Position numbers and translations under genes: made by a program. A stretch of 64,000 nt of DNA, taken from Daucus carota subsp. sativus. Taxonomy: Eukaryota; Streptophyta; Magnoliopsida; Apiales; Apiaceae. Below, one piece after another: positions 3,499 through 56,023 of this stretch (positions are counted from its first letter, which is position 1; every line of letters begins with the position of its first letter). The stretch is taken from NCBI RefSeq assembly GCF_001625215.2, contig NC_030383.2, forward strand, positions 10,986,779 to 11,050,778, given 5' to 3'. The notes beneath the pieces are model-generated. The model was given only the letters and a program-made list of their open reading frames with translations, made no database searches and was not told the origin of the DNA.

Positions 3499-3503
3499 AC
3501 ATA

Positions 3504-18960: not shown

Positions 18961-21059
18961 CTTTAATATGATCTTTATTATGTTCTTTAATACAATGCTA
19001 AGATTCTATTAAAGGTTTACACAATTATTTCATTATATTAATTATTTATCAAAATATCAACTATTTACCTAAGTATTTCATCTTTTACTTTGAACTAAAT
19101 ATTAAATAGAATAATTTTTATAAAATATTATTTAAATCTATTACATTATAATTTTCAGGGAGTCATCATTAGAATTTAAAATTCGTAGTGATTTTTTGCA
19201 TATAATTTTATATTTCAGTTTTATGTTCATCTACTTGATCATATAATATGTGTTTTAATATGTTCTTCTAATATTTACACAATATTAATATAATTTTCAA
19301 TTATCAACAAATATTCTATAAATACTAATTATATATTTTTTGAGTTCTACTGAGTGATCCACTTAATTTTAGTATAATTTTTTAACTTGGTACGTGTTAT
19401 AAAATTTAATATGTTACTTTGTCTATAATCTTCTATCAAAAATTATTGTAATATTTTTTTGAGTTCTACAAAGTAACAGCTAAATTTTAGTATAAACTTT
19501 TTAATCGAGTAAGTGTTCTAAAAATTTTAATATAATTTTTGAATTATATTCTAGCAAAATTTATTATAATTATTTTGAGTTCTTTGAGTGATCTACATGC
19601 ATTATATATTTTAATAAAATGGAAGCTATGGATCTCGTTGTTTAGTTTTTTCTCCCATGAATTTTAAGATTAGCTCGTAAAATACAATTAAGCAGATGAG
19701 TTACAAAATATTTAAAGATTTGAATCGTAGTTTACATTGACATGAACACATCACCAAAAATATAAAGATTGCTATAAATTTATTACCAAAAATATAAAGA
19801 TTCTTTTGTACTGAGAGAACTTTAAATCAAAATGTATTGCCATAACGTAAAGATTTTGTTAAATATGGATAGATATATGTACGTTACAATTTCCTTTACT
19901 ACCTAATAACATCTACCTTAATCGTTAATTAATTATGACTCATAAATAATATTGATTGTATATATCTTTGCACATAAACTATATTACTCGAATATTTTAA
20001 CATGTATAAGCGGAATACAATGAAGAATCCAAAACAGAACTGCACGTATAAAATTTTATTGTTGTTCTGATCATATTAATAAAATAGAATGTGCTCAACA
20101 TGAAATATTTGTCATGTTTCTAACAACTAACATAAAAATCACAGATCCATTGCAGAGAGCTATATATTGTTATTGCAGTAGCCACCAACATCTGTCTTCA
20201 ATATACCAGGGGACCATTGTAGAGTAAGTTGTATAAGATGATTAAGATCTTTCACAACAACAAAGCAAGAACATGCATACAAGCATAAAACATGTTAGAA
20301 TTAATCGACGTTGACATCAGGATCTTCGGCAACTCTTCCCCACTGTTCTCATTCCCGAAGAAAAACATCAAAAAACCTAGAACATTTGAGGGTTCCTTAC
20401 AGTGTTCTCTCTAAAGCAAATTGTGCATAAAGATTGTTATAGAGAGGTCAAGAGTAAGAACAAACTGTGATTCATCCATGGTGGGAGCTTCTTCAACCTT
20501 TTCCTACAGTTTCGATTTTGCTTCTGCGTTATATCTGGTAGCTATATTGTCCCTCAAAGCTTTCATAATTACATGATCCCATGATCCAATCTCTACCAAG
20601 CTTTGTACATCAACATCAAAACTTTCAGATCACCTAGGGTCATCAAATACAGTATTGTTGCACGCATCGGTACACAATAAATAATGAAACGTGAAGGGCT
20701 CATCTCGTTGATAAGAATTAAAAAAAAAAGTAAACTTTTATCATGAAATATAATTCAAAGATACGTATAGGGGGACAACTGTAACGACCAGAAAAGGAAA
20801 AAGATGATTTGGAGGTGAGAATCAATCAACGAGAGTAATGAAGGTAAGGTTTGTAATAAATCTTAATTTGATACAGGCAAAGATACGTATAAAGAATTTT
20901 TTTGTTTAAAACGTTCCGTATACTGCCCTTGTGGATAATTTAATTGTATTTATACAGTATCTGGAGTATTTAATTAGATCACAAGATCAAGACTGATCCA
21001 ACGGTCAGAAATCACGTCTCTCATGTCTCTCGCTAAGGCTCCGTCTCTTTTGAACCTTC

Positions 21060-21061
<2 letters not shown>

Positions 21062-21098
<37 letters not shown>
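21062..21098. repeat. (AT)n microsatellite
   Basis: Uninterrupted dinucleotide run between TIR elements #4 and #5. Confidence 0.93.
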
Positions 21099-21101
<3 letters not shown>

Positions 21102-21288
21102 TCATGCTCTAGTGAGAACCAATGTTATTGTGAGATATGAGATCTAATCTCAGCCACACAATTTATACCTTTTATCAATCTCTCATCACACATTAATTTT
21201 TAATTTGTAAATATTTTAGCATCATCTTCATTCTAATTCCACCACCTGCCACCTTCAACCACCGCCGATCACCATTTCCGGCCACCAC

Positions 21289-24200
21289 TGTGACGACTCG
21301 GATTTTTCAAAATTTATTTTGTTGTTTATTTTTGATTCTTTAGAAAATGCGGAATAAAATATTATTCTATTCTAGTTTAATAAATTTTAAAAGTACATGT
21401 TTAAATTATTTTTTTTCCGGTTCACTAGGGTATCGAAATTTTGTTGTCTGTTTTGAATTCAATACCATGTTAAATATATGAATTACTTGTTCTATGGTTT
21501 AAGTTTATCATCTGGATGTAACTTATGCTTGTGTGTATATTTGTTACAAATTGTTGTGTTGCTTTATAAATATTTATGATTTTCTTAAAAACGGACTTTA
21601 GGAAAATGAATTCCTGAAAATATGAAAGTGATTTCAAAAATCTTTTAATTATTTAATAATGATAATAAATATTTTTAGGAGTTTTTAAAATATTAAAAAT
21701 CTTATTTCTGTAAGGTCATGTTTTTTTTAATTAGTTTCTAAACGCAGCTAACTTCTTAATTTTGTATAAATTTCGAAAATGCTCTATAAATCCTGAAACT
21801 TTTATTTTATTAGTTTTATAATATTCGGTAATTTATAAAATTAGTTTGGTAATTTTTTTTGAGAAAGTTTTATTGCGAGTTATCCCGTAAATCAACTAAA
21901 TAGCGGGTGTTTGGATGATTATTCAGCTTAAAATAAAAGGTACGTGGCAGCCAAAGGCCATAAAACAGTGTCCCGTATACTCCCCGTCTATTTAGTACTT
22001 CTTTTCTTATTTCTTTTTCTTTCCTTCATGCTCAGCATCACCGTCTCTCTAATCTCTCACTCTCGTCTCTCTCCCTCTCCCAAATCACTCTCAATCTCAC
22101 CTCTTCCCTCAATCAATCTCTCTCGTGTAATTGCTCTTTCTTCCTCCTGCCGTTGCTACAACCGCCGGGTCTTTGCCGCCGCTTTCTCTTCCGGCCAGAA
22201 CCACCACCGTGGCACCGCCTGTATCTTCCTCCTTCCGGCAACCACCATAGCCCTGCACCAGTTATAAATCAGTGGGTATAAAGATTAATTTATCTTTGTC
22301 AAATCAGTTCTATATAAACGTATATATATGTGGTGTTGTGTTTATATGGATTAAATTGATTTATATAATCGATTTATGTGTGCTTGTATGTATACAAACT
22401 GATTATATGCTTGAAATTGAAGGTTGATTTCATTTTTGAGATTGAGATTGGTGTTAGTAATTGTATGATTGAATTGTGTCCTTAATTGATATTTGAATTG
22501 GTTGTTGTAGGTTGATTATAAATAGTGCGCCAACTAGTAGTTTAATCGGATGACTTGGGTACTTGAATTGTGGGAATATATAACTGAGTATTCAAGCTTT
22601 AAGGTCTGAGATTTGTGTAAATGTTTTCAGAATGGTGTTTTAAGAGTTTAAGCATTGGGTTAAAAATTTAGATTTACACATAATCGGTTGAATTGTAGGT
22701 TGCTGCTGATCTGTTTTTCCGTACAATTCTGGGCTCATAGATTTGAATTATATGCTTAATCTTTGTGTGGTTATGTGCTCCTCAGAGTCTAGTTTATGTG
22801 CGCGAAAGAATCGAATCGATTCGATTAGCGAGCTAGGAGATATGACCGTTTTAGTATGGTATGCGCAGAAAATACTGGACAGGGTCTGTTATACTGATTG
22901 CAGACTCTGTTTGGAGGTCTTATACTTGGTGTTTAATTCTGAAATCTTTACTGGAGTTAGATGTTAGTGTCTGGAATATGTCATTAAAATTTTATACAAA
23001 CAGACCAATTTTCCTATTTATTAAAATTCTTAGCGTGGGGCTGGTTCTGCAGGACAGACTCAGGTTCTTGACTTGCAGGCCCTGTTTTACTCCCTTAAAC
23101 ATGGAATTTTCTTCTGAAATTTTTATAGTAGATTGGAATAATGTTTAGGAGTGTCTCATAGAAATTTTGTATTAAAGAGATAAATTTTCAATTTATTAAA
23201 AATCATAGAGTGAGGGCTGTTTGAACTATTTGTTCTCGTCTTCTTTCTTTGATTAGTGCATAGGAGGAGGTTATACTTGGTTGGTCAGTGTTAATCATGT
23301 TTAATAGTGATATATGATTTCAAATCTAGCTATGCAAGTGTGCATACTGTGATATTGTGTTTTAATTGATATTGGTCCAGTACTTATTTGTTTATTGAGT
23401 TGGATTGAGTTGGTTACTTGTTGAATAATATAAGAAAACAGGTGGATAGTCCGATAAATAGAGGAAGTGCTGTCGAATTTTCGTTAGAAACTATATATGT
23501 TTTACTTGTTGAAGGATATTAAATAGATAAGAATAAGGTGACATGGTTAACTGAAACATGTTAAATGTTAACTTATCAATATTGACTTTTTAATGGCTAT
23601 ATAAGTTAATTGTTCAACTATGTGCTATGTGTTTGTCTGACTACGTGGTATGTATATGCGAAGGGTAGATATATAATAGGTCTTAATGCTTTGCGAGCTT
23701 AGTTAATCCGTCGACGACTGAAATAATATTTTGCCATCGTATAGAATTGAACGAGACGTTGATCGAGGCATTGATCGAGAAGTGATTGAAATGGGTATTC
23801 AGAAATAGCTAAGTTGTGTTGCAAGTTGAAGTTAGGCAGAGATTTGCTATAGATAAAATCTTGTCAGAAGCTGGCAGAAAGGAATGATATGGCACTACAT
23901 AGTGTTATTAGAAATCTGAGATAGACACCGGAGTTAAGGCAAGTATATATCCAACCTACTTTCTCTTTAAAAGATTTTGCTCCTGCAATGCTTTGTTATG
24001 CTTTGAATATTGCAAAACTCCTTATAGAATTAGACTTCTACTAATTAACTAGTATTCTGGAATTACCCAAGTATGAAATGGAATACCCTTTGTCACTTAT
24101 ATCTTGCAAATGTATCAGCTTAATTATCATCCTTATCTTCTTCAACTGCCAGATACTTAATATTGAGCTTATAACTTTGTTTTCTTACCTCCCTCTCAAC

Positions 24201-25277
24201 TACAACAAATTGTGTTCTTGCTTATAAACTAGTTCACTTATTTGTTTCTGACTAATAAATGAAACCCTATTTCTTGAAAGACCTTAGTTATCATCATACA
24301 ACCTACCCTGCCATTATTATAACATACATTGATACACTTGATTCAGTAGCCATACCCTTGATAAAGAATACTTAATTAGTAGAACTCTAATGCTAAGGTG
24401 TTGAAATGAATATTTGGTTGAGAATCATTGTTGCTTACAGATTTTGAACCTTGGTTTTAAAATGAAAAAAATGAATTGATTTATCTGTTTTAGAAAGGGA
24501 ATTGGATGAAAATGTTTTATGACCGAGGCGCCGGTCCCAATTGAAGTATTAAAGGCCAAAGTGTGCCTAGGATCCTTTATATTTGAGAACTCGTATTGAA
24601 TATGCGGGTTCGGAGCTATGTCGTGGGCTGATCACCCAGCTTAGCTCGTAGCGTCTTATCTGGTTCCAATTCCATAAAGAAGAAACTGTTTTGTTTAAAT
24701 CATATTGTGTTGGTATCATTATCTTTATATCATTGTTGGTTTGGATATTATATACTTGCTGAGCATTCTTTTGCTCATTCTTGCTATTTCTTCTAACCCC
24801 TTTCAGATAATGTTAAAGATGGTTCGCCTATTTAGGCTAAGCATAAGAGTAAGGCTAGGCGAGGATTGCAAGTGACTAAGTTTCAACCTGATGGTCAGGA
24901 AGAGTATCCAAGATCGAGTCTTTGGGACTAGTGGTAATTAGAGTTGTCTAAATTTGATTTAGTTGTAAAAGCATGTAATAAGATTTATTAGTTTTACTTT
25001 TCTGATTTCAATAATATAGCCTGTTTGCGATCCTGTTTTAAAGGGGGTTAAACTTTGTTTTTTTTTTTAAATCTTTTATTAAAGCTTTTAGGTTTTAAAT
25101 TCTTTGATTTTTATTAGCTTTTCAACAATACATGTTTCGAAAGGGTAAATCATTTTTTTTAATATCCAGGTTTGAAATACTTGTTTTTGCTTTCTTTAAA
25201 AAAAAAACATACAGGTTTTCAATTGGTTTTCTTTTAGTGGCACCAAATCCAGACCCCCGGATTTGAGGGCTGTCACA
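21289..25277 (+). repeat. 5' LTR (3989 bp) of the LARD-type element
   Basis: Begins TGTGACGACTCGG and ends GGGCTGTCACA. It contains a pyrimidine-rich GC-richer segment (about 21960-22260) with a 107-codon open frame that I do not regard as a gene, and a TTGCTGAGCATT-type motif near 24758 often seen in Tekay-like LTRs. Confidence 0.9.
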
Positions 25278-26984
25278 GTTGGTATCAGAGCTGCAGGTTA
25301 TAAGTCATTGAAATCAGAATATAGGTGGTAATATCAGGTTTAATAAAAAGGTGCGTTAAGTGTAACCTCACATAGAGGTAGTCTACAACTATTTGGAATA
25401 GTGTGTGTCAATAGAACCAAGATTCACATATAGTATTGACCTTGAGTATATCATAGTGTGTATAATAGGTTTTCTGTTCCAGAACTAGCAAGTTTATATC
25501 TCAAGGAAGAAAGAACAGGCCTCCACCAGTTTTTATTATATTGAGTATTTAGTACTAATACTAGCAACCAAATAGATTCACTTGTTGAGTCTAGAACGCC
25601 ACTAATTATTTCATAGTCCTTGTCACCAAGATAGAGATAAATTAAAAGGGTTACTATGAGTTGTTATATTGTGGATTAAAATTTCTTAACACCAGTTTAA
25701 TTGAGTTTCAAACTCATAGTAGGTGGATAAGATTTTTGTCAGTGTTTAGCTTGTTAGTCGATTTAGAGTCAAAACTATTTGAAGGGTGAAAGATAGACCT
25801 ATTAGTTGAGCTTTAAAATTGGAATCAGTTGAGGTCGGACCAGTAGAAGCATTCCCATAGTCTAGAGCATCTTTTGAAGTATTTGTCAAGTTTTGAGAAC
25901 TATTTGAAAGGTCACCTTTTGTTTCATGTCAGTGATATATAGAGTTGGTCAAAGAATATAGGTGTTACCAGGTCCGAGTTTCAAGCTTTGTATATAGTTA
26001 AGTAGTGAGCGTTGGAGCTACGTAGAGTTCGTATTAGATTACTCGATCTAGTACCTATGAGTGAGTTAAGATGTCAACGCTCTATGGTGATGACTGCATA
26101 AAGCTGGAAAAGATTTCTGATTGACAACTATATCGATAACGGGATCTTCAGAGGCTATTACAAGTCAACGATAATATATGCAAGTGATCACTAGAACGTC
26201 GAGAAGAATCATTACAATCCAAAACGAGTCATCAAATGAATCGTTCAAGAGGACATCCATGAAAATCCTGGCAATACCTTCCTCATATTCGATAATATTG
26301 ATTTCTTTCCTCATCATTGATTTGTTCTGACATCACTTTCATAAAGACATTTGATGAAGAATATATCTTTCTGTCTCACTTGAGTTCTCGAATGATACTT
26401 GTGCTTACTGTAACACCTTTGGAATCTATTCAATTTTGATAATTTCAAACCCTTTCATATTCTTTATTCTAACCGAGGTGAACAACCCTACTTACAGGGG
26501 ACACAAGGACTATCTGTCTGTGTGATAGAAGTTGGATGGGACGCCATCCCTTGTGTGTGTTGTATATACAAGAAGGTTAACTACCTTTAGTAGTGTCTTA
26601 ATCTAGACACACAACACTGAGTTCTTTAGATCATATTGATCTCTCAGTTATCTCTCATTTCAAATGAGATTTATTTAACATTCTTATAATCATATGACCA
26701 CAATCACGTGATATTTGCTTCGATATAGGAAATCAGTCATACTTTTAAATCTTCAAGATTCTTGTTATCTCTGAGACTTTGGAGGTATGCCAACCAAGTT
26801 GCCAATATGAATTAAGACTTTGTAGTAGAAGGCACCAGGATGAAAGCGGATGACAATGCTGGTATACGGAAGCGATCAAGAAAAATTTTATATCATAAAG
26901 AAAGTATTACGGATTATGGAGATCTTACGCTCTAGTTTGCTTTTCGCTGATTCCGAGGACGGAATCCTTTTAAGGGGGGTAGAT

Positions 26985-29900
26985 TGTGACGACTCGGATT
27001 TTTCAAAATTTATTTTGTTGTTTATTTTTGATTCTTTAGAAAATGCGGAATAAAATATTATTCTATTCTAGTTTAATAAATTTTAAAAGTACATGTTTAA
27101 ATTATTTTTTTTCCGGTTCACTAGGGTATCGAAATTTTGTTGTCTGTTTTGAATTCAATACCATGTTAAATATATGAATTACTTGTTCTATGGTTTAAGT
27201 TTATCATCTGGATGTAACTTATGCTTGTGTGTATATTTGTTACAAATTGTTGTGTTGCTTTATAAATATTTATGATTTTCTTAAAAACGGACTTTAGGAA
27301 AATGAATTCCTGAAAATATGAAAGTGATTTCAAAAATCTTTTAATTATTTAATAATGATAATAAATATTTTTAGGAGTTTTTAAAATATTAAAAATCTTA
27401 TTTCTGTAAGGTCATGTTTTTTTAATTAGTTTCTAAACGCAGCTAACTTCTTAATTTTGTATAAATTTCGAAAATGCTCTATAAATCCTGAAACTTTTAT
27501 TTTATTAGTTTTATAATATTCGGTAATTTATAAAATTAGTTTGGTAATTTTTTTTGAGAAAGTTTTATTGCGAGTTATCCCGTAAATCAACTAAATAGCG
27601 GGTGTTTGGATGATTATTCAGCTTAAAATAAAAGGTACGTGGCAGCCAAAGGCCATAAAACAGTGTCCCGTATACTCCCCGTCTATTTAGTACTTCTTTT
27701 CTTATTTCTTTTTCTTTCCTTCATGCTCAGCATCACCGTCTCTCTAATCTCTCACTCTCGTCTCTCTCCCTCTCCCAAATCACTCTCAATCTCACCTCTT
27801 CCCTCAATCAATCTCTCTCGTGTAATTGCTCTTTCTTCCTCCTGCCGTTGCTACAACCGCCGGGTCTTTGCCGCCGCTTTCTCTTCCGGCCAGAACCACC
27901 ACCGTGGCACCGCCTGTATCTTCCTCCTTCCGGCAACCACCATAGCCCTGCACCAGTTATAAATCAGTGGGTATAAAGATTAATTTATCTTTGTCAAATC
28001 AGTTCTATATAAACGTATATATATGTGGTGTTGTGTTTATATGGATTAAATTGATTTATATAATCGATTTATGTGTGCTTGTATGTATACAAACTGATTA
28101 TATGCTTGAAATTGAAGGTTGATTTCATTTTTGAGATTGAGATTGGTGTTAGTAATTGTATGATTGAATTGTGTCCTTAATTGATATTTGAATTGGTTGT
28201 TGTAGGTTGATTATAAATAGTGCGCCAACTAGTAGTTTAATCGGATGACTTGGGTACTTGAATTGTGGGAATATATAACTGAGTATTCAAGCTTTAAGGT
28301 CTGAGATTTGTGTAAATGTTTTCAGAATGGTGTTTTAAGAGTTTAAGCATTGGGTTAAAAATTTAGATTTACACATAATCGGTTGAATTGTAGGTTGCTG
28401 CTGATCTGTTTTTCCGTACAATTCTGGGCTCATAGATTTGAATTATATGCTTAATCTTTGTGTGGTTATGTGCTCCTCAGAGTCTAGTTTATGTGCGCGA
28501 AAGAATCGAATCGATTCGATTAGCGAGCTAGGAGATATGACCGTTTTAGTATGGTATGCGCAGAAAATACTGGACAGGGTCTGTTATACTGATTGCAGAC
28601 TCTGTTTGGAGGTCTTATACTTGGTGTTTAATTCTGAAATCTTTACTGGAGTTAGATGTTAGTGTCTGGAATATGTCATTAAAATTTTATACAAACAGAC
28701 CAATTTTCCTATTTATTAAAATTCTTAGCGTGGGGCTGGTTCTGCAGGACAGACTCAGGTTCTTGACTTGCAGGCCCTGTTTTACTCCCTTAAACATGGA
28801 ATTTTCTTCTGAAATTTTTATAGTAGATTGGAATAATGTTTAGGAGTGTCTCATAGAAATTTTGTATTAAAGAGATAAATTTTCAATTTATTAAAAATCA
28901 TAGAGTGAGGGCTGTTTGAACTATTTGTTCTCGTCTTCTTTCTTTGATTAGTGCATAGGAGGAGGTTATACTTGGTTGGTCAGTGTTAATCATGTTTAAT
29001 AGTGATATATGATTTCAAATCTAGCTATGCAAGTGTGCATACTGTGATATTGTGTTTTAATTGATATTGGTCCAGTACTTATTTGTTTATTGAGTTGGAT
29101 TGAGTTGGTTACTTGTTGAATAATATAAGAAAACAGGTGGATAGTCCGATAAATAGAGGAAGTGCTGTCGAATTTTCGTTAGAAACTATATATGTTTTAC
29201 TTGTTGAAGGATATTAAATAGATAAGAATAAGGTGACATGGTTAACTGAAACATGTTAAATGTTAACTTATCAATATTGACTTTTTAATGGCTATATAAG
29301 TTAATTGTTCAACTATGTGCTATGTGTTTGTCTGACTACGTGGTATGTATATGCGAAGGGTAGATATATAATAGGTCTTAATGCTTTGCGAGCTTAGTTA
29401 ATCCGTCGACGACTGAAATAATATTTTGCCATCGTATAGAATTGAACGAGACGTTGATCGAGGCATTGATCGAGAAGTGATTGAAATGGGTATTCAGAAA
29501 TAGCTAAGTTGTGTTGCAAGTTGAAGTTAGGCAGAGATTTGCTATAGATAAAATCTTGTCAGAAGCTGGCAGAAAGGAATGATATGGCACTACATAGTGT
29601 TATTAGAAATCTGAGATAGACACCGGAGTTAAGGCAAGTATATATCCAACCTACTTTCTCTTTAAAAGATTTTGCTCCTGCAATGCTTTGTTATGCTTTG
29701 AATATTGCAAAACTCCTTATAGAATTAGACTTCTACTAATTAACTAGTATTCTGGAATTACCCAAGTATGAAATGGAATACCCTTTGTCACTTATATCTT
29801 GCAAATGTATCAGCTTAATTATCATCCTTATCTTCTTCAACTGCCAGATACTTAATATTGAGCTTATAACTTTGTTTTCTTACCTCCCTCTCAACTACAA

Positions 29901-30972
29901 CAAATTGTGTTCTTGCTTATAAACTAGTTCACTTATTTGTTTCTGACTAATAAATGAAACCCTATTTCTTGAAAGACCTTAGTTATCATCATACAACCTA
30001 CCCTGCCATTATTATAACATACATTGATACACTTGATTCAGTAGCCATACCCTTGATAAAGAATACTTAATTAGTAGAACTCTAATGCTAAGGTGTTGAA
30101 ATGAATATTTGGTTGAGAATCATTGTTGCTTACAGATTTTGAACCTTGGTTTTAAAATGAAAAAAATGAATTGATTTATCTGTTTTAGAAAGGGAATTGG
30201 ATGAAAATGTTTTATGACCGAGGCGCCGGTCCCAATTGAAGTATTAAAGGCCAAAGTGTGCCTAGGATCCTTTATATTTGAGAACTCGTATTGAATATGC
30301 GGGTTCGGAGCTATGTCGTGGGCTGATCACCCAGCTTAGCTCGTAGCGTCTTATCTGGTTCCAATTCCATAAAGAAGAAACTGTTTTGTTTAAATCATAT
30401 TGTGTTGGTATCATTATCTTTATATCATTGTTGGTTTGGATATTATATACTTGCTGAGCATTCTTTTGCTCATTCTTGCTATTTCTTCTAACCCCTTTCA
30501 GATAATGTTAAAGATGGTTCGCCTATTTAGGCTAAGCATAAGAGTAAGGCTAGGCGAGGATTGCAAGTGACTAAGTTTCAACCTGATGGTCAGGAAGAGT
30601 ATCCAAGATCGAGTCTTTGGGACTAGTGGTAATTAGAGTTGTCTAAATTTGATTTAGTTGTAAAAGCATGTAATAAGATTTATTAGTTTTACTTTTCTGA
30701 TTTCAATAATATAGCCTGTTTGCGATCCTGTTTTAAAGGGGGTTAAACTTTGTTTTTTTTTTTAAATCTTTTATTAAAGCTTTTAGGTTTTAAATTCTTT
30801 GATTTTTATTAGCTTTTCAACAATACATGTTTCGAAAGGGTAAATCATTTTTTTTAATATCCAGGTTTGAAATACTTGTTTTTGCTTTCTTTAAAAAAAA
30901 AACATACAGGTTTTCAATTGGTTTTCTTTTAGTGGCACCAAATCCAGACCCCCGGATTTGAGGGCTGTCACA
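26985..30972 (+). repeat. 3' LTR (3988 bp) of the LARD-type element
   Basis: Line-by-line reading shows the same sequence as the 5' LTR apart from one T in a homopolymer. Confidence 0.9.
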
Positions 30973-30996
30973 ACCACCACCTCCGGCGACCACCCG

Positions 30997-31105
30997 AAAA
31001 TCACCACCGGCAAACATAAAATCACCACCGTCAAACCGAAAATCACCATCGGAAAACTAAAAATCACCGCTGGAAAAATGAAAATCACTTTCAGAAAATG
31101 AAAAT
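30997..31105. repeat. 21-bp minisatellite in the Pack-MULE body
   Basis: About five consecutive units beginning AAAATCACC and varying after it (ACCGGCAAACAT, ACCGTCAAACCG, ATCGGAAAACTA and so on). The AATCACC core recurs further at 31206-31275 with longer spacing. Confidence 0.75.
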
Positions 31106-31284
31106 CACCACATCACCACCATTTACAAACCACCACCACTATCTACAAACCCCGAAATCTGAAAAATTACCAACTACAAAGTAAAATCAGCTCCAAAAAA
31201 CAAAAATCACCACCGTCAAACAAAAAATCACCACCAGTAAAGAAAAAAATCAACACCAGAAAAATAAAATCACCAACGCCAAAA

Positions 31285-31500
31285 TAGATCCAACAATAGC
31301 GTCTCCGACGACACAACGGCAGCACCCACTTCAACGCATCTCCACCTTCAAACACCACCCCTCCACCACCGATTAACCCTTTCTTCCCTTGTCTACTCCT
31401 TCGCCTCTGATCTTGTCTTCTCCTTCTTCATATTCGTTGACTTCAACTCCACCTCCTTCTCCTCCACCAGCTCCTTCATCGTCATCGCCAAGAAGCTCCA
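31285..31500 (+). pseudogene. Captured, decayed copy of the 5' end of COG5 exon 1
   Basis: This stretch aligns with 53449-53676, the start of the COG5 gene in the same window: AGATCCAACAATAGCGTCTC against AGATCCAACAATGGCGTCTC, then CAACGCATCTCCACCTTCAA in both, then GACTTCAACTCCACCTCC in both. Identity is roughly four fifths with small indels, including about 12 bp missing near the right end. The start codon is changed to ATA. The match begins about 10 bp before the ATG and stops near the codons for EKLQ. It is not a working gene. It lies on the plus strand inside TIR element #5. Confidence 0.85.
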
Positions 31501-31922
31501 CACCAATACAGTTGCTGATTAGCCTGATTGTGTCGCTGGGGAAGGCAATGGCGTTTTCACCGTCGGTGGATTGTGTCATTGGAAAGGCGGCGAAGTTTTC
31601 ACCGTTGGTGGATGGGTCGAGGGAGGTAGAAGGAGACGGAAGGGATAAAGATGACGGGAGAGGGAGATGGAGAGAGAAATGGAGAGCACAGTGGAGGGGA
31701 TGAACAGGTCTGATTGAAGATTGACGTTGGAGGTGAAGAACAATTTTATCGAAGGCAAAAAGCGGTGGTGTGGGGATTGGGGATGAAATGAGAAGATAAG
31801 TGGTCAAGCACGTGGTTAGGAGAGAAAAAATGTGAGGGTGTGATTAAAAGTTGTGTTATAAATAAAGGGCTGAGATTAGATCTCATATCTCACATGAGCT
31901 TGGGTTCTCATTTGAGCACTTG

Positions 31923-31924
<2 letters not shown>

Positions 31925-31960
<36 letters not shown>
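31925..31960. repeat. (TA)n microsatellite
   Basis: Uninterrupted run between TIR elements #5 and #6. Confidence 0.93.
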
Positions 31961-31963
<3 letters not shown>

Positions 31964-34286
31964 GGAGGTTCAAAAGAGACCACTACGCCATAAAAGGCCT
32001 TCTGCAACATAAAATTTATGATGCAGCAGGGGGCTAATATGTTACTAAAGGCCAATAAAAGGGCTAAGGTAACATATATTTTATGATAGGTTTTTTCATG
32101 TTGCCCTAGGGGGTCTAAGGCAACATCTTTTTCTCCTAAACCAACAGAAAATATATGTTAGCGAACTCTATGTAAGCTAACATTTTATTCACCTAACCCA
32201 TCATTATTTTTTGTTACCTAAGAGTGTTATATTTTTTTAAAAAATGATGGGCCCACTGTGGGGCCCACCTGGGGACCACATGGGGCCCACTGTTGGATCC
32301 ACCTGGCTGCCACGTGGCAATGTGGGGCCAATTAATTTGTCAACATTTGAACAAGCTACTGCAACATTTTGAGTAAACAGTTTTTCCAACATTTAAGGTA
32401 GCTACTGCAACATTTTACCCAAAAAAAATTGACATATATGCTCTAAATATACAATACTTCCCAAAATAAACCATTCCAATAAACCATATTTTAAATCCAT
32501 ACACCAAACATCCAACATCTAACATCCACCAGCCAACATCTAATATCCAGCATAACCAATTACAAAATCCAACATCCAACAACATATATAAACATCCAAT
32601 TTACCAACTACTTAAACCAAAATAAAATCGTTTAATTTTCAATACATAATAAAATCAATAATGTCCTTTTACCATCAATTAAAAGTAGATGATATATTTT
32701 TAATTTTTTTTAGATATTGACGTTTTAAAATTTAAAAAAATAAATATTTCACTAGATATTCAAATTAATCTCTCATAAATTTATTATTATTAAAAATGTG
32801 ATAAAATTTATCAGGACTTTTGTGAAGGTGAATAGAGATTTGAAAAAGTTTGTATTAAAGATCTAACATTTAATTTATATGGAGATTCCATAACGTGTTC
32901 GTTAAAGTGATAAGAATAATTATATTTTAATATTAAAATTTAAAAATTAAAATTTCAACATTAATATCAATAAAGTTCAACTTGTAATATCTGCAAAATT
33001 GTTTATACTTATTACTATTTTGATTTAAAGAAGAAAATCTCATACTTTCGTTACAGCTATAATATATTTTACCTACTACCTTATATCTTTTTGATATTAA
33101 GTTACCAACTTATTTTCACGGGATTCTTTTAAGGTGTTTCCTTAGACATATGATAATAATTTCACATCACATATCTTTTTTTATTAAAAGTTAGATGATA
33201 AAATATAAATATTTTAACTTATCTCATTAAGTTTTATATTAATCAATGATTTCTTCACAAATGTAACATATCTTATTGAGTAATTAATATTTTAAATTTT
33301 TTTATTCTTACTGATTTTATAGATATTCTTTAAGATGTTACGTACACATACGGTAAAAATTGCACCTTTGTGTTTTATTTAATTTTGGATAAATAATTTT
33401 AAAACAATTATTCCATTAAGTGTCTAGTGTGCCAAGTGGGCGATATTTTTATAAATTATTTTACATACTAATTTTAAAATTTTAAATATTAATTCCATAT
33501 GTTCTTTTGCAAAGATTCTTTACGGGGCTACATTGCAATAGAATAAAAATACATGGTTGTGATTTTTTTAATATTTACTAACATAGATTCCTTATTTCGA
33601 TTAATATGGAGATTCATTAAGGTGTTCTCAAAAAACTACACGGTTGTGTTTTTTTAAAAAAATTTACTAATAAAGATTTATTAATTCGATTATTATGAAG
33701 ATTCATTAAGGTGTTCTCAAATACTAAGGTTCTAATCAAAGATCTAACAACATTATTATTATTATTATTTTTGCAAACATAGCGTTCTATATCAATTGTT
33801 TTGAATTCTGTTATAGGATCATAATAACATGTTGAACGTTAATGTTCAAAAAATTTCAAAAGAACAAAAAAAAAATCTAAATTTAAATTAGTGTTCTTTA
33901 GACGAATCCAAAAGATCATGATATATACTCTAACTAATATAATAAAAGGACAAATCTTAGCAGATTGGGCTAGATTAAAGATCAAAGATGATAAAATAAT
34001 ACTAGAGTATTCAGTGTTTAAATTGAATTCAAAATGTAATAAATGACAATGATTTCTTTCCAAAACAGAAAAGATCATGCAATCTCTAAATATTAGCAAC
34101 ATACCATATAAAAATAATTAGATCGTATGCACAGAGTTAAAATACAATTGAAAGCCTTCATTATACTATATATTTACAGTAATGCCATTTAATGATATAT
34201 TTAGTAATGTATTCAAATACTAGTTAATCAATGGTCTAGATGTGGTCTCTCAGGTCTCTAGGAAGGGTCTCTCTGGACCTCAATCC
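31961..34286. mobile_element. TIR element #6, interrupted by a CACTA end
   Basis: The left terminus GGGGGAGGTTCAAAAGAGAC matches the right terminus read inverted (GGATTGAGGTCCAGAGAGAC), which continues with repeated AGAGACC and a CCATTGATTA motif like element #4. The left terminus is cut after 20 bp by a CACTA element (31981). The remaining interior (32450-34200) is very AT-rich with recurring short motifs (ATTCATTAAGGTGTTCTCAAA near 33610 and 33700). No open frame of note. Confidence 0.6.
31981..32440 (+). mobile_element. CACTA (CMC) transposon, 5' end fragment
   Basis: Starts CACTACGCCATAAAAGGCC, the typical CACTA terminus. Subterminal repeats based on GCAACAT / TGTTACC follow, then a GC-rich GGGGCCCACCTG-type stretch, and more GCAACATTTT units to about 32430. 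No inverted partner (GGCGTAGTG) was found downstream, so the other end is missing. The right boundary is approximate. Confidence 0.65.
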
Positions 34287-36665: not shown

Positions 36666-37410
36666 GAGCAGGTCCAGTTGGTTAAAAAAAAAAAAAGCAG
36701 GTTCAGTGTATTTGATTCGGTTTGATTAATCGAAAACTGTGCCGAATATCCGAAATAATTGCGATTCGGTTAATCGAATTGATATTTTTGTTCAATTTCT
36801 CGACAATCAAAAATCTGAATTTTGATATTTCAGTTTTCCAATTTTATATCCGTGATTAAAAGAAAACTAATGATTAACCGAAATACTTATAAAAATACTA
36901 AAATATATTTAAGTTAATAACATAAATACATTACACTCGAGTAACTTCACTACTTCACAGTTCGCATACACTAATTATATTATCGTTGTCAGCGACTTAG
37001 CCAAACCCTAATCAAGGAATCGAACATCCGATTCAAAGCCCCAACCGAGAAAGTGCCGTACTGAATCTTAATTTCCTAACAGAATCTATCAAATATCAAT
37101 CAATTCCAGCCCTGAAAATCTATCACATTGTTCTCTGCGTCCAACTAACTCATTATTATTGTACACAAGTTAAAAATGGAATTTTATACACCAAACTGTC
37201 CCAAAAATATCATTATTTCAAAAATAAAAAGTCATGACAGTCCGCATCAATAAATTTCTCAATAATTTTAGACAACATCCGCATCATCTTTTATTACAAT
37301 TAAAATCTCGAAAGATATATTTATTAAAAAGAGGGGTAACTTGTGAATTCCTCTGTTGTTTCGTACTTGATGCATCAAATAATCAATAAGCATCCTCTGC
37401 TGTTGAGAAG
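36666..37410. other. No gene seen; repeat-derived AT-rich spacer
   Basis: 36690-36870 is rich in ATTCGGTT / GATTAATCG motifs typical of decayed plant transposons. The remainder to the stop codon of copy D shows nothing recognisable. Confidence 0.5.
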
Positions 37411-38657
37411 CTACATAAGTGAGCGGACTCGAGGAGAAGGAAATGAGGCTTGAATCTTGTCCAGAAAACTGTTCATTACTTTCAAACCTTTTTCATCTAC
37501 AACAAAACAGACTTCCTTGTATTATATCAAAACTTATGCTGATGACATTAAACTATTAAAGTGTACAAGATCAATGAAAGGGTAGTCTGCTAGGTTGCAA
37601 GAGTTTATACCTAGTTCTGGCACCTCATGACCCCCGGAGTGAAAAATAACGAAAGGGTGGAGGAATGAGGCCAGTAGTTCAATTGCTGACAGCTTTGCCA
37701 AGTCGTTCTCGCCTGTTTACGTTTCAGAAAACAAAACAAATGAGAAAATAACACGGCTGTGTCTCGATAAGATTAGTTAAGGATTTGATAAATACCGAAG
37801 CAATGAAGTGAGGGGATCTGAATGAGTGAGGAAAATGCATTTTCCGCCAGCTTTGGAGCTGCAAGCCCTGAGCTTCCTAATTGACCTCCTGATATCACCA
37901 CCACAAATTTCAGATCGTCTACTTTGGTTAGAGCCACACCCTGTCATGCACCAAATAACAAAAAGCGGTATCAATGCCTTAATTAGGTGCAGGGGCGGAT
38001 CTAGCATGAGAAATTTAGAATGATGAAAAAGTGTCAAAAAAAATTTGTTGGGGGACACGTGTCCCCCATTGTTCCTTACTAGATCCGCCTCTGATTAGGT
38101 GTACCGCGTGCAAGACAGGTCTGGAAGTGAGAAGTAATTTACCTGGGCTTGCATTCCCGGTAAGGCAGCCGCTATGCAAGCTCCCTTGATGTAAAAGAAA
38201 AAGGAGTCGTGTCATGTAACAAATTACTTACGAATACAGCTGCTACGACTGTCTCGTAATGTAGTAGTGTGTAGTTAAAAGAAAAGTACCATAGACATGC
38301 CGAGAACCCCGTCAAAGGGGCCAAGCTTTACCATAGTCTCCTCAATGTATGCGATGGACTCATTAAACGTGCTGTTCAGTGTGGTTTCATCCTGATATAT
38401 ATTGGCATGCAGAAGCATCAAATTACAAGTTAAGTTTAACTGATAAAATGAGAATTTATTAGTACAAGTTAACTAGGTACTTGACCGTCAAACCAGGTAA
38501 AAGCCGGAAAATCTTCATTATCAACGCGAAAAGGAGCATCTATGAACACAAGGTCCATTCTTTCCAGTACATCTGATGGCCATTTCTGAAGCTGTTCCTC
38601 AAGGCGCGCGCTGCTGTCGACACCACCGTGAAGGCAAAGAATTTTGGATTTCTTCAT
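37411..38657 (-). CDS. FSH-type (OVCA2-like) serine hydrolase, copy D, six exons
   Basis: Exons: 38657-38481, 38391-38290, 38184-38143, 37940-37796, 37712-37611, 37496-37411 (177, 102, 42, 145, 102, 86 bp), 217 residues. Borders are GT-AG and the frame is kept. Starts MKKSKILCLHGGVDSS. It has GMSMG (Ser92), GENDL (Asp159) and GGHEVP (His184). The segment that reads LDPFVIFH in the sisters is LHPFVIFH here, a change of a conserved Asp that is not the presumed triad acid. Exon 6 is one codon shorter, ending VRSLM. Intron 3 carries a 104-bp hAT MITE. It looks intact and is the partner of the truncated copy A. Confidence 0.83.
37990..38093. mobile_element. hAT-type MITE, 104 bp, in intron 3 of copy D
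   Basis: Termini CAGGGGCGGATCTAG and CTAGATCCGCCTCTG, flanked by a perfect 8-bp target duplication ATTAGGTG (37982-37989, 38094-38101). An inner GGGGGACACGTGTCCCCC palindrome is present. The sister copies lack it. Confidence 0.9.
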
Positions 38658-39032
38658 CTTTTATAGATTTTAGCTTCTGATCAGATCTGCTGCTTCTGAA
38701 AGAGCTGCACACTTTTGTCTACTATAAATATCACACACATTTGCAGGAACCTGAATCTTTTAACTTAAGATTATATAAACTCAAGCTTAAGATGATACTA
38801 ATTAATAGTATTACACATGTGAAATATATTTAGGTGAGAATGAACAGTTATGGTTACTTTTTTACTTGGAAATACCCGAAAATGTACAGAAATAGAAAGA
38901 TCTAAGGACTAGTAATATTTGTACTCAACAATCACCTAACTTTGTTTTACTAGCCCGTCTGCTCCGTTGTTAATGCTACAACTGGCATAGAACATTGCAA
39001 AAATAGCACTCCCGCGACCATTCAAGTTTTTT

Positions 39033-39158
39033 GTCTTGTTAGTTGTTAAGTCGTTGTCAACTCCTTTGTATTTATGGTGCAACCGCAATTCAACCGTCTT
39101 GTTAGTTGTTAAGTCGTTGTCGACTCCTTTGTATTTATGGTGCAACCGCAATTCAACC
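39033..39158. repeat. 63-bp tandem duplication
   Basis: The unit starting GTCTTGTTAGTTGTTAAGTC occurs twice here but once in the sister block (about 509-571). The units differ at one base. Confidence 0.9.
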
Positions 39159-39445
39159 TTGCATTTCCTCGTCTCATTCTGTTTACAAATCGTTCTTCTT
39201 AACTAAATTAAGGTTCAACGATAAAAGGTTAAAAAGGACAAGATTAGGATATATAAATTGATTAGGATAATGAGTTTGTACTATGGATCTATACTTATAA
39301 TAATTTTTTAGGTAAGTTCAGAATTAGGTTTTTGAAGATATTATATTTCTCTCGTTTTTTTATATTTTTATTGAGTTGTCAAATTTTTTTCACATTTTTT
39401 ATTTTTCTTTACTCATGGTTCCTCCTTTTCCATCCTTGTTATTAA

Positions 39446-39725
39446 GAGGGTGTTTGGCTGACACACAAGTTGGCTTTTTCTGTTTTTAAGTTAGCTTCTG
39501 CTTGTACATGACTGTTTGGAAAATAAGTTTCATGCTCTTATTGGGTTTTGTGGTTAGAAGTCAGAAGCTGGAATGTGTAGCTTTTTTGTCTTGCCACAAC
39601 TACTTATTTGTTTAATCATCCAAACACTAATCAATTTATAAGTCCACATCTACTTATCATTATATAATTTACTTCTTCACTTTGAAGTAACAAATAACTT
39701 CTTTTAAGTTAAGTCAAACAACCTC
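39446..39725. mobile_element. PIF/Harbinger-like MITE, 280 bp (duplicate of 856-1113)
   Basis: Same termini and same TAA flanks as 856-1113. It retains a TACATGACTGTTTGG segment missing from that copy. Confidence 0.8.
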
Positions 39726-40310
39726 TAAATTCACAAGATTTCTCACAAGCAAATTATTTATCCTCTGATATTCGCTTTAAATTCAGTTTGTCGTATTCAC
39801 AATATTTTTCGTGAATTATGTCACAAATTGTTCGAAATCATAAAAAATATTGAGATCGTATTTTTTTTATTTGAATTCTGAAACTGTATTTTACTGATAA
39901 AAACTGTGAATTATTGGTCTAATCACAATGAAGACAACAATACAAAGTCCATTGTGATAGAAAGCAGTTGTGTTGTGCTTGATGCATCAAATAGTCAGAC
40001 AACATCCACTTTGTTGACAGAGCTACATAAGTGAGCGGATCACTTTAGGAGCTGCAAATGAGGCTTGAACCTTGTCCAGGAAACTGTTCATTACCTTCAC
40101 ACCTTTTTCATCTGCAACAAAACAGACCTCCTTGTATTATTTTCAAAACTTGTGCTGATGACATTAAAGTGAACAAGATCAATGAAAAGGTGGTCTGCTT
40201 CGTTGCAAGGGTATAAAAGTTTACCTAGTTCTGGTACCTCGTGACCCCCGGGGTGCAAAATAACAAAAGGATCAACAAATGATTCCAATAGTTCAATTGC
40301 ACCTAACTTT

Positions 40311-40440
40311 GCGAAATCATTCTCACCTATTAATGTTTCAGAAAACAAAACAAATGAGATTATAATAGGGTTTTAGCGAAATCATTCTCACCTATTAATG
40401 TTTCAGAAAACAAAACAAATGAGATTATAATAGGGTTTTA
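40311..40440. repeat. 65-bp tandem duplication spanning exon 5 border and a transposon end
   Basis: The unit from GCGAAATCATTCTCACC to AATAGGGTTTTA occurs twice in tandem (40311-40375, 40376-40440). Its last bases GGGTTTTA are the terminus of the MULE that begins at 40433, so the duplication includes 8 bp of the element. Confidence 0.9.
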
Positions 40441-41007
40441 TATCAAGCAGGCCACTCATCTCGCCGAAAAGTCTCAAGTAGAACATAGGTCTCCACGGCG
40501 ACTCATTTAAAAGACTAAATCACTGTAAAATATCTCATCGTTAACTTTTTCAAATTTTTTTAACGGAAATCGTTAAATTGAAAATCCTCCGTTAATAACG
40601 ATTAGAAATGCACATATGGCAATACAATTGGCGCTTACTTGTTGCTGACTTGTAAACAGATTAAACAAAAACTAATTAAACAATTAAATAACCAAAATAA
40701 AAACATAAAACCAAAACAAAAACAAAAAACGTCTACATACAACTATCATACACATACATCGTCTAGGGCTTTAGATTTGGGGAAGACCAAGAACAGTTTG
40801 TGCTGCTGCTATTTAGGGTTCGAAAAGGAATCATCTTGCTGCGATTGAGGATTTACTAATCAGAATCAAAGCTCTGTTAATTTTTTTCATAAAAGTTAGC
40901 GGTGAGATATTTTACAGTGATTTAGTCTTTTAAATGAGTCGTTGTGGAGACCTATGTTCTACTTGAGACTTTTCGGCAAAATGAGTGGTCTACTTGATAT
41001 AAAATCC
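40433..41007. mobile_element. Mutator-like MITE, 575 bp, in intron 4 of copy E
   Basis: Terminal inverted repeats of about 105 bp: GGGTTTTATATCAAG at the left, GGATTTTATATCAAG inverted at the right, both continuing to the CACTGTAAAATATCTC region. The target duplication is GATTATAATA (40423-40432, 41008-41017), 9-10 bp as for Mutator. Copy B has the single empty site. The interior has a short GC-richer stretch (40760-40850) with a 69-codon open frame of no recognised family, possibly captured sequence. Confidence 0.88.
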
Positions 41008-41596
41008 GATTATAATACGACTGTGTATCGTAAAATTAATTAAGGATTTGATGAATACCGAAGATGTGGAGTGAGGGAGTCTGAATCAGAGAGGAAAATG
41101 CATTTTCGGCTAGCTTTGGAGTTGCAATCTCTACACTTGCAAATTTACCTCCACATATCACCACCACACATTTCAAATCTTGCACTTTGGTAGAGCAACA
41201 CCCTGCAATGCACCAAATATACACGATGCTATATATATCTTAATTACATGTTCAGCAAGAAAGGTTGAGAGTGAGAAGTAATTTACCTGGGCTTGCATTC
41301 CCGGTAAGGCAGCCGCTATGAGTGCTCCCTTTGTGAAAATAAATCAAAAGAAAGACTCGTGTCATGTAACAAATTACCAAGACAGCTGCTAGGATTGTGT
41401 AGTAAAGTAGTTGTTCATAGTTAAGAGAAAAGTACCATGGACATGCCGAGAACCCCGTCAAATGGGCCAAGCTTTACCATAGTTTCCTCAATGTATGCGA
41501 CGGACTCATTAAACATGATGTTCAGTCTGGTTACATCTTGACATTTATTCGCATGTAGAAGCATCAAATTACTAAGAAAATGAAAACTGGTTGCTA

Positions 41597-41836
41597 TTGG
41601 GTTTGTTTAGTGTGTGTCCATGGGCACATGCTAAGCACGGAATTTTATATGTTTGGGAGATTTTGATTGGTATGGTGGTTGTATATATTTTATATGTTTG
41701 GGAGATTTTGATTGGTATGGTGGTTGTATATACAGAGAGTCCATCATTATTAAAATATGAGAGCCAATCAAAAAGAGTTAAAACTTATAAAATTTCTCGC
41801 TTAGCATGTGCCCATGGACACACACTAGAAAAACCG
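41597..41836. mobile_element. MITE, 240 bp, TA target site, in intron 1 of copy E
   Basis: Inverted termini share TAGTGTGTGTCCATGGGCAC and ATGCTAAGC. TA stands on both sides (41595-41596, 41837-41838); copy B shows the empty site GCTATAACTG-like with one TA. A TA duplication suggests Tc1/mariner-type, though the termini are not Stowaway-like. The interior has a 57-bp tandem duplication (TTTGGGAGATTTTGATTGG). Confidence 0.75.
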
Positions 41837-43104
41837 TAACTGATTTGAAGTGGTTGGATGGCATACCTGATCATCATACCAGGTAAAAGCTCGAAAATCT
41901 ACATCATAGGCTGCAAAAGGAGCATCGATGCACACAAGGTCCATCCTTTCCAATACACTTGAAGGCCATATTTCAAGCTCTTCTTTAAGGAGCACACCAC
42001 TACTGCGACCACCGTGAAGGCAGAGGATTTTCGATTTCTTCATCTCAGATGTCAGTTTCATTTGCAGTTCTGCGTTGATCAAATTTAATGTGAAAGAGCT
42101 CTAGTACACTATTCTCTGCTGTTTATGAAATGGCCCACACATATTCAGCTACCTCAACTTACCATTTTCATGCCGACAGCCGGGAACAGAGTTAAAATTT
42201 CTAACTCACATTTATTCAAAGTAAAATGTTGAAAATTTAAATAAATGTTATTATATACAAAAAAAACTGAAAATTAAAATCAATACAAGCCGCTTCTGAT
42301 GCTGAGGAGGATGTGGGTCATTTGAGTGGCATGTCAACATTAATATTGGAAGGTAGTATTGAACTATCATGTCTCTCTGATTGTTAATTAAGTAAGTTTT
42401 AGACTGTTAACTTTCTTCATTGCAATCAGTTTTTCTGATGTTTTTACATCACTTAAATATTTTTTACTCTGAAGATGGACTTCGTATACATGGTTATCAG
42501 CTTGTAGTGCAGAATGTTATCGAGAAAGATCTCTGATAAGTGTCTGGTAGAGTCGATTTGTAACTTTGTATTCCTTAACTTACTGATAAGGATCAAGATT
42601 TTGCCTAAACAAATCAAAAGATTACATTTTCAGCTAACTCAACTCACTATGCTCATGCTGACAATCTATCTACCCATTTTTCTGATGTATAAAATGTGAC
42701 CAACACATTTCCAGCTACTTCATCTGACCATATTCATGCAGTTCTGTTTAAGAGTACTCCTATAAACAGAAGTGCATATAATATCTGTATTTTATTCAAT
42801 TTAAAATATTTTTTGAGTGAATCTTATAACTTGCATTATTCAAAATACATTGTTAAAAGTTTAAATAGATGTTACTATAAAAGAAAGCTGAAAGTATTAT
42901 AAATAAATTATACATATAAAATTATGATCCTATTGATTTAAGAAAGAATTACACATCTGAAATATATTTAGTTGAGAACCAACAATTATACTTGTACAGT
43001 AACTCTTTTACTTGCAAATTCCGGTGTGATAGAAAGCAGTATCTTGTGTTTGGTACTTGATGCATCAGATAATCAGACAACATCCTCTTAATTTGTTGAC
43101 AGAG

Positions 43105-46194: not shown

Positions 46195-46376
46195 TTGTTC
46201 TATCTTTTGATGACGATGTTTATGTTGTAGAACATATTCTGCAGGTTGTGTGATGTTTATAAATAGTGTAGAACAAAAAAAATTAAGATTCAAATGACTA
46301 TATTATATTTTATGAATCTTGTATTCCAATACTCCAATATTTTTTGTACTCCATAGAATTTGACTCTAGGACTTAA

Positions 46377-48129: not shown

Positions 48130-48287
48130 TTAGCAGGTTGGCCCTTTACATTACTCTCCGCATCCGCGGTCATGCAAACAGGCGGGGACAGAGTTTGAAT
48201 TTTTAACTCGCAGGGTATAAATAAATGTTATTATATACAGGAAAAAAACAGAAATTTAACATCAATAAGATGATATATGAGATCTAA

Positions 48288-48706: not shown

Positions 48707-48746
48707 GAGATCTAAATCTCATTTATATATAATCTAATTTAACGGC

Positions 48747-49467: not shown

Positions 49468-49475
49468 CTAACGGC

Positions 49476-53262: not shown

Positions 53263-53460
53263 GTTTAATTGTTGGCAGTGATTAATTAGCAACTTTTAGA
53301 AATGACTATACATTAATTTAATTTTTATTTTGTTATTTCAAGTATTTTCATCTAATGACCGAGGAAATTAAATCTTAATACTCTATAATCGCTTCTCCAA
53401 ATACATATCGAGTCTGGTAAACAAGTGTGGAATAGAAGACGGAGCAAAACAGATCCAACA

Positions 53461-56023
53461 ATGGCGTCTCCGGCGACACCGCGACAATACCCACTCCAAC
53501 GCATCTCCACCTTCAAAGACCGCCCCTCCACCACCGCATCAACCCCTTCTTCCCCTCTCTCCTCCTTCGCCTCCGATCCCATCTTCTCCGTCTTCCTCTC
53601 CGCCGACTTCAACTCCACCTCCTTTTCCTCCACCGCTCTCTCCACCGGCTCCTCCATAGCCATCGCCGAGAAGCTCCAGCTCGCCATTCGCACTCTCGAG
53701 AACCAGCTTCGATCCCAGGTCCTTTCGCACCACACCCATCTTCTCTCCCAGCTCTCTAATCTCCACCAGGCTGATTCTTCGCTTACCCATCTGAGAAACT
53801 CGCTGAGTACTCTGCAGTCATCGCTGCTGCGTCTGCGGGCCGAGATCACGGAGCCCAATAAGGCGATAAAGTCGAAGACTACCCAGCTTTCGAATTTGCA
53901 TTCGAGTGTGTCGTATTTGCAGGGGACGATTAGGTTGATTCGGTTGTCGAGGAAGCTGAGGGGGTTGATGGGGGTGGAGAGTTTGGATTTGTCGAAATGT
54001 GCGCAGTTGTATTATGAGGTTGTGAGTTTGTTTAATGAGAGTGATTTGGGGGGAATTGGGGTTGTGGAGGAGGAAATGAAGTGGGTTTTGGAGTGCGGGG
54101 AGGAGTTGCGGGTGAAGGGGATGGAGGTTCTTGAGAGAGGGTTGGAGTCGTTTAATCAGGCGGAAGTTGGGGCGGGGTTGCAGGTGTTTTATAATTTAGG
54201 GGAGTTACGTGGTACTGTGGAGGGATTGGTTGGGAAGTATAAGAATGTTGGTGTCAAGAGTATTGCCAATGCGTTGGATATGAAGGCGATTTCGAGTGGT
54301 GGGGGGATGTATGGAGGAGGGCCGGGTGGGATACAGAGGAGTGGGACGCCGCAGATTGGGGGTGGGAGTAAGGCCAAGGAAGCGTTGTGGCAACGGATGA
54401 ATGGGTGTATGGATCAGTTGCATAGTATTGTTGTGGCTGTTTGGCATTTACAGAGAGTCTTGTCGAAGAAGAGGGATCCGTTTACTCATGTGTTGTTGCT
54501 CGACGAGGTTATGCAGGTATGGTTTATGTAGTATTGTTGTTGTCGGTTTTGTGGTTTTATGTAATTATATATTATCTTGAGCTAAATGTTTAGATAGAAT
54601 TCTGAAAATGATAATAAGGATGATCTGATATGTAGTATCTTGTATCCTATTCAAATAGGCATAGGTAAACCAAACATATTAGTGTATCCCGCTCTCAAAG
54701 TACTTTATTAATTAGGGAGTAAGAGTATGCACAAGCACACTGCAACACCTATGCACAAGCACACTGCAACACCTTAACCTAACTTGTAAATTTTTTTAAC
54801 AAATCTTGTTTTGTCCTAATATCCAGTGTCTCGTTAGAAGTCATAATTTGATTGTGTAGAGTAGGCTACCTTCAAATTTTTATTAGCTAAGGTAATTTAT
54901 TAATGCCATCATTGGTGTTGTATTGCTGTTATCAGTTATCAGCATTGTAATATTATTAACTTTTATTAGCTCTTATCATCTTAGGAAGGTAATTTGATGT
55001 TAACATATAGAGTTTGGGAGGCACTTCTGAAAAGCTTTGCTAACCAAATGAAAAAAAAACCTTTATTAGCCAAATAAAATGTCAGTTTTATGGTTTTATG
55101 CAAGTACAGAAGGTGGAGCTAAATGTTTTGATAGAATTATGAAAAATGATATCGAGGATGGTGTGGTATACAGCATGTTGCATCGCATACAATAATATAA
55201 ATAGGTACTCCCCCTGTCCCTTCAGATTGTTAACATGTGGCAGATAAGGTGACACGCATTTTAAGGTTCCAATAAGTATAGTTTCATATATTATTTTAAC
55301 TTTTATGTTCTTTAAAATAAGAATTTCGTCTTAAAATTTTTAATAAAAAAATAAATTTTGAAAGGTAAGTTATGAAATTATACTTTATATCCACCTTAAA
55401 ATGCACGTCAAGCAGTGCAAGAAAACTGTTAACAAATGGATGGGATGGAGGGAGTATAACTAAACCAAACATATAAGCGTATCCTGCTCTGGAGTAGTTA
55501 AAAGTAGGGGAGTAGGATGTACTCTATACTCACCATGCCTTAACTCATAAGAAATATTAACCCAATATAATTTTGTACAGAAATGTAGTTTTTGGTTTGA
55601 AAGCTTAATTTTTTAATTCAGAGAACAGTCTCCCTTCAAAGTGGAGGACAAACAATTGGTTATTGTTGGTGTATCAAATTATGTTTGTTATTACTTTGTA
55701 CAATCAAGTTAATGACTAGTTACACCAATGGTGTTGTACTGAAGGTATGGTTTAGGTAGTTTATGGTTAATAGTTTTATGTTAAGTACATTATCTCTGGC
55801 TAATAGTATTGGTACGATTGGATGTTGGAGTTGTGAAAAATGATATTGAGGATGATGTGATGTATGTATGTTGCAGGCATAGAAACAGGGATAACCAAAT
55901 ATATCAGATTATCATTGTATACCACTCATAAGTCTTAAGTATTCGTAAGTAGGGGATTAGGATGAAATGCAGGCACACCTTACCCATACTCGTAGTAGTA
56001 CAGAGGTATTGCCATAAAAATAA

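Follow-up and report, generated by a model that had tools for sequence, protein, structure and literature searches.

The 64,000-nucleotide stretch of carrot DNA analysed here, which is referred to as the window, contains the gene COG5, whose first exon matches the Pfam domains COG5_N (E 4.6e-23) and COG5_C (E 1.2e-38), and an element with terminal inverted repeats (TIRs) that carries a piece of the 5' end of this gene (Table 1). The outer ends of the element lie at 21099 (GAGTCATGCTC...) and 31924 (...GAGCACTTGCC), each of them adjoining a (TA)n tract, and the terminal sequences of the family to which it belongs are GAGTCATGCTC...GAGAACC and GGCAAGTGCTCAAATGAGAACC. A preliminary description of the locus mentioned strong inverted termini of 60 bp, and termini of 57-58 bp, with 44 of 51 aligned bases identical, are indeed present, although separated by a retrotransposon. 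Without the latter the element measures ~1.1 kb, and its ends are now 10.8 kb apart because a 9.7-kb LTR retrotransposon has inserted within it. The LTRs of this retrotransposon (3989 and 3988 bp) exhibit no mismatches and one single-base indel, with the target duplication ACCAC on both sides; their near-identity over such a length indicates that the insertion is very recent. In addition, a second inverted pair, at 31906-31979, links the right end of the element with the adjoining sequence, and several long direct repeats of ~80-99% identity, located in 1-6053 and 37357-51432, join sequence on the left side of the window to the region at 37-51 kb.

Table 1. Coordinates of the element, of its components and of the parent sequence in the window.
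Feature	Position	Strand	Basis
(TA)n microsatellite, left element end (target site)	21062..21098		sequence, flank listing
Left terminal inverted repeat	21099..21155	+	44/51 aligned bases identical to the inverted right end
Left arm up to the retrotransposon insertion; last bases are the target duplication ACCAC (21284-21288)	21156..21288	+	in sister copies without an interruption, this arm runs directly into the right part
Nested LTR retrotransposon; LTRs 21289-25277 and 26985-30972	21289..30972		LTR comparison; ACCAC on each side
Inner sequence: degenerate AAAATCACCACCG-type repeats, also in family members without COG5	30973..31279	+	sequence, genome matches
Captured COG5 5' piece (end of the 5' UTR, beginning of exon 1); ATG to ATA, frameshift, stop	31280..31500	+	alignment, translation
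Right inner part	31501..31866	+	search with 31500-31830
Right terminal inverted repeat	31867..31924	-	end alignment; genome pattern search
(TA)n microsatellite, right element end	31925..31960		sequence
Parent sequence in COG5 (ATG 53461)	53445..53678	+	alignment, exon 1 search, Pfam

In a local alignment with 13 gap columns and a score of 140 (136 with the bare 216-base query), 31280-31500 and 53445-53678 are identical at 190 of 221 aligned bases, which bears out the claim of the preliminary description that the segment corresponds to COG5 from before the ATG into exon 1. The captured piece starts 16 nt upstream of the COG5 ATG and ends within exon 1, and the pieces of some sister copies start up to 8 nt earlier. 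An explanation of the similarity by composition alone, as CT-rich, Ser/Pro-coding sequence, has nothing in its favour except the bias itself and can practically be dismissed. Base shuffles (1000) scored 27 at most and codon shuffles of COG5 (1000) 33 at most, far below 136-140, so that chance similarity was rejected; the top-scoring window tile outside the COG5 start reached 20 (tiles starting at 30700-31700 excluded), and the similarity takes in 5' UTR bases and has a sharp edge. A better parent elsewhere was also discarded, since no other gene matched the piece when the genome was searched with COG5 exon 1 and all 15 candidates were scored. The 16 matches of this search comprise the gene, the 12 element copies described below, two pieces of a further element (L036) and a duplicate on contig C9 of another part of COG5. 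Thus, the two objections foreseen in the preliminary description, namely a match no better than that of Ser/Pro-coding sequence and a better match to another gene, both fall away. Moreover, its statement that the GC-biased start of COG5 was captured agrees with a GC content of 59% in the parent piece against 34% in the window. The duplicate on C9 (L037 3425-4476, C9:6127924-6128975) corresponds to COG5 54097-55139, with some intron 1 sequence among it, and is 93% identical overall and 99% in the exon part (exon match C9:6128552-6128975); no sign of the element family was seen at this duplicate.

A genome search with 31200-31600 yielded at least 87 matches, with 40 of 188 candidates scored. They include 12 element copies with the COG5 piece (that of the window among them), the COG5 gene, and 74 matches to the repeat part only, which by position represent at least 39 loci, 12 adjoining a COG5 piece and at least 27 away from any. 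Therefore, some members of the family have a COG5 piece and others lack it, and both kinds of copy that the preliminary description proposed to look for are found. The 12 copies are distributed over six contigs (C2, C3, C4, C6, C7 and C8), and at most 11 of them represent independent insertions, since L011 and L012 are contained in one segmental duplication, whose blocks are 91-98% identical over ~8.4 kb. A 13th element, L036, is located at C6:3259322-3259596. The element is mobile together with its fragment, as the 12 copies and one longer derivative occupy different sites. Its length is 1079-1124 bp in seven of the 11 other copies and 1119 bp in L010 when the own right end of this copy is used, the size outliers being L009 (2584 bp), L014 (1709 bp) and L019 (984 bp). 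L009, the nearest sister copy, is longer through another insertion (L009 3255-4704), which differs from that of the window copy, lies ~10 bases from the point where the retrotransposon splits the latter, and presumably has hAT-like ends. When 31500-31830 was searched for a second captured gene (seven of seven candidates scored), eight matches were obtained, all of them element copies except one weak match at C8:24265114. At two loci (L010 3292-6691 and L018 1393-4750), three family members are arranged head to tail with TA tracts as joints; in each trio only one member has the COG5 piece, and the inserts of the others differ. The insert of one COG5-less neighbour (L018 1860-2200) has 18 matches in the genome, and repeated packing of other genes by the family is no more than conceivable.

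At 24 alignment columns the 12 copies agree with one another but not with COG5; the change from ATG to ATA belongs to these, as does a gap spanning ~12 columns. In 11 of the copies the match to COG5 ends at 53678, and in the remaining one at 53676, followed in all 12 by CACCAA. A tree of the piece, with COG5 as root, places the window copy and L009 from C2, which are identical in the piece, together with L010-L013 in a group of six (support 97/93); over 982 bases, the window copy and the C2 copy show 99.5% identity. The 24 shared columns, together with the position of the window copy next to a copy from another chromosome, thus point to one capture that was then amplified. The element L036 retains the ATG and contains COG5 53444-53515 and 53875 to ~54068, with a weak extension to 54123, and its segment 4124-4394 aligns with window 31075-31350 at 65% identity, crossing the left junction. 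From this junction alignment a shared origin with the other copies may be assumed, and the simplest reading would be one capture of at least ~625 bp with internal deletions afterwards; a second, independent capture in L036 is possible.

According to the preliminary description, parent and copy lie so close together that a local capture could be considered, in which the window element would have copied the piece straight from COG5. Both sequences are indeed 22 kb apart on the same strand, and the probability that one of 12 copies falls within 22 kb of the parent is ~0.0012 under uniform placement; however, this value overstates the surprise, because the finding was chosen for both lying in one window, and inspection of a single stretch by itself can reveal only cases of this kind. 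Against a direct local copy, the window copy shares the 24 derived columns with 11 others and is nested in their tree, its nearest relative is on C2, and L014 on C8 (91.1% identity, the highest) is closer to COG5 than the window copy is (86.0%; the lowest value is 85.5%, in L011). Moreover, the data reject a clade of COG5 and the window copy (p-AU 3.6e-9) and one of COG5, the window copy and L009 (p-AU 3.2e-5), and weakly also one of COG5 and the five-copy subgroup (p-AU 0.028). Local capture by the window element is therefore extremely unlikely. A milder version, with a local capture of COG5 in the ancestor, subsequent spread of the family and, later, a short-range hop of the window copy or its return to the neighbourhood, would also account for the nearness to the parent and could invoke the local hopping described for some transposable elements (PMC13317346). 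Nevertheless, the closest relative of the window copy is on another chromosome, which does not point to a local last jump, and no second COG5-bearing copy was found in the window; such a course carries only a small probability. It could even be imagined that the return was not due to chance, and that homology to the sequence or chromatin of the donor gene steers gene-carrying, microsatellite-targeting elements back to its vicinity, but such homing seems very improbable. From the tree, the last step was the transposition of an already amplified element, and this is the most likely origin of the site 22 kb from COG5. The closeness of a captured piece and its parent within one window is, thus, poor evidence for local capture.

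Very probably, then, the captured piece is part of a non-autonomous, Mutator-like element that targets TA microsatellites (Pack-type, of the MuTAnT/MiM kind), and a single capture was amplified before the window copy arose by a late transposition. While homology, termini, copies, common junction, tree and nested insertion are directly observed, the course of events that connects them could be as follows. The family ancestor would have copied at least ~625 bp of the COG5 5' end once, from 16-24 nt before the ATG to ~54068, probably through ectopic repair or gap-filling as proposed for MULEs. The lineage of L036 (C6), presumably of common origin with the other copies, would have deleted the middle of the piece. 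In the lineage of the other 12 copies, ~234 bp would have been kept and the start codon lost, and these copies may have spread into TA-rich sites with a transposase probably supplied in trans. The window copy would represent a late transposition in a subgroup from which its closest known relative lies on C2, and it was afterwards split by the LTR retrotransposon. The locus thereby offers, for a TA-targeting Mutator-like family, an ordered chain of events that comprises one capture, start-codon loss, internal deletions, spread and a nested retrotransposon.

As a non-autonomous TIR element with a host-gene fragment, the window element is of the Pack type and represents an ordinary kind of plant transposon. 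As regards the target, all 12 copies have four or more consecutive TA units within 24 bp of an end, and in eight of them these lie directly at the end (within 2 bp). The sole readable target duplication among the 12 is that of L017, whose ends are flanked by a 10-bp direct repeat, TATATACTTA; in the other 11, a duplication is masked by the TA tracts or no repeat is evident. Pattern searches of the genome recovered 124 left ends (at most one mismatch) and 181 right ends (at most two mismatches), with none in either backward control. When 100 of the 124 left and 100 of the 181 right ends were used for pairing, at least 65 of these 100 left ends had a convergent right end within 25 kb. Among the 65 pairs listed, 57 measure 869-1359 bp, which constitutes a clear size class, and eight hold the COG5 piece. 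The Pack-MULE label of the preliminary description is probable, given a TIR element with Mutator-like features and a copy of the GC-rich start of COG5. As regards an autonomous partner, no MULE domain was found inside any of the 65 listed pairs, with 150 of 813 MULE candidates scored. Within the same scored set, three MULE matches occur no more than 3 kb from a right end, all of them outside the element, and two belong to a FAR1-type MULE, here named 'X', which is found beside L011 and L012 with its end on the same TA tract (Pfam FAR1 and MULE at L012, MULE and SWIM at L011).

The 'X' family adjoins the right ends of L009, L011 and L012, and in the window the reverse-strand 5' end of a transposase-coding 'X' (20300-21061) adjoins the element across a shared TA tract. 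On the other side, to the right of the TA tract, 31961-31997 contains ~20 bases of an 'X'-like end followed by CACTACGCCATAAAAGG, which we take to be probably the start of a CACTA element; even with as many as 3 mismatches allowed, CACTACGCCATAAAAGG matches nowhere else in the window. Of 1000 shuffles each, 25 attained the score of the 'X' end against the right end of the element, and 359 attained its score against the left end. With an end only weakly like those of the element, 'X' was rejected as a proven autonomous partner, and it therefore counts little for the Mutator assignment. Another mover could be considered, such as a different TIR superfamily (e.g., hAT, PIF/Harbinger or CACTA) or circle recombination via TA repeats instead of a Mutator transposase. 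The masking of most target duplications by TA tracts, the failure to find a transposase with the same ends in the listed pairs and scored candidates mentioned above, and the circle model mentioned for TA-flanked elements (PMC8227079) would all be compatible with it. However, the 10-bp duplication of L017 exceeds the 8, 3 and 5 nt of hAT, PIF and CACTA (PMC8903248), and both Medicago and carrot are known to have Mutator-like elements that target TA repeats (PMC4486113, PMC8227079), so that a mover other than a Mutator transposase is considered unlikely.

The MuTAnT elements of Medicago truncatula are TA-targeting, Mutator-like TIR elements, mostly non-autonomous (PMC4486113), and the MiMs of carrot reportedly amount to 2156 copies in 15 TA-flanked families, three of which have related putative autonomous Mutators (PMC8227079). 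As with these MITEs inserted in microsatellites, the window element is a TIR element in (TA)n, probably Mutator-like, its likeness to MiMs being one of features. In contrast to them, it is ~1.1 kb long and contains a gene fragment, whereas 90% of MuTAnTs in Medicago measure 200-300 bp and the Mutator-like MITEs of carrot have a mean of 429 bp (PMC4486113, PMC8227079). The Pack-MULE PM-ZIBP of tomato, with 14 copies, readable duplications of 9-10 bp and tandem TIRs in 13 of the 14 (PMC3310237), resembles the present family in being non-autonomous and in exhibiting many copies of one captured host-gene piece. It differs from the family described here, which has short ends of 57-58 bp and a TA-rich target, mostly a TA microsatellite. 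These inverted termini are also shorter than the TIRs of typical MULEs, which span 100-500 bp (PMC3310237). As in rice, where GC-rich parents are the rule for MULEs (PMC4858842), the parent is GC-rich here too (59%, compared with 34% in the window). No essential difference separates the element from Pack-TYPE transposons, which are likewise TIR elements that match a coding gene and lack a transposase (PMC8903248, which at the level of its main text mentions neither carrot nor Daucus). The literature searched contained no joint description of TA-microsatellite targeting and carriage of gene fragments, whether for Pack-MULEs or for MITEs. Searches for carrot Pack-MULEs (judged by title), for Mutator-like elements or MULEs of Daucus carota (judged by listing) and for capture of COG5 by a transposable element (judged by listing) returned, respectively, no paper on the subject, only a grape match and only unrelated matches. 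The window family unites two known behaviours, TA-microsatellite targeting and gene-fragment capture.

With respect to function, the translated window piece has lost both start codon and frame and contains no intact reading frame. Compared with COG5, the 12 copies, which are not independent, together have 92, 101 and 125 mismatches at codon positions 1, 2 and 3, respectively; with these near-neutral proportions, selection on the piece was rejected, and from its sequence the piece looks neutrally decayed. The number of exact 21-mers shared with the COG5 5' region is one in the window copy, six in L014, five in L036 and none in L019, and that of exact 24-mers is none, two, two and none, respectively. 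Since the window copy has one shared 21-mer and no 24-mer, action on COG5 through small RNAs from this copy seems unlikely, while small RNAs from other copies could possibly act on the gene.
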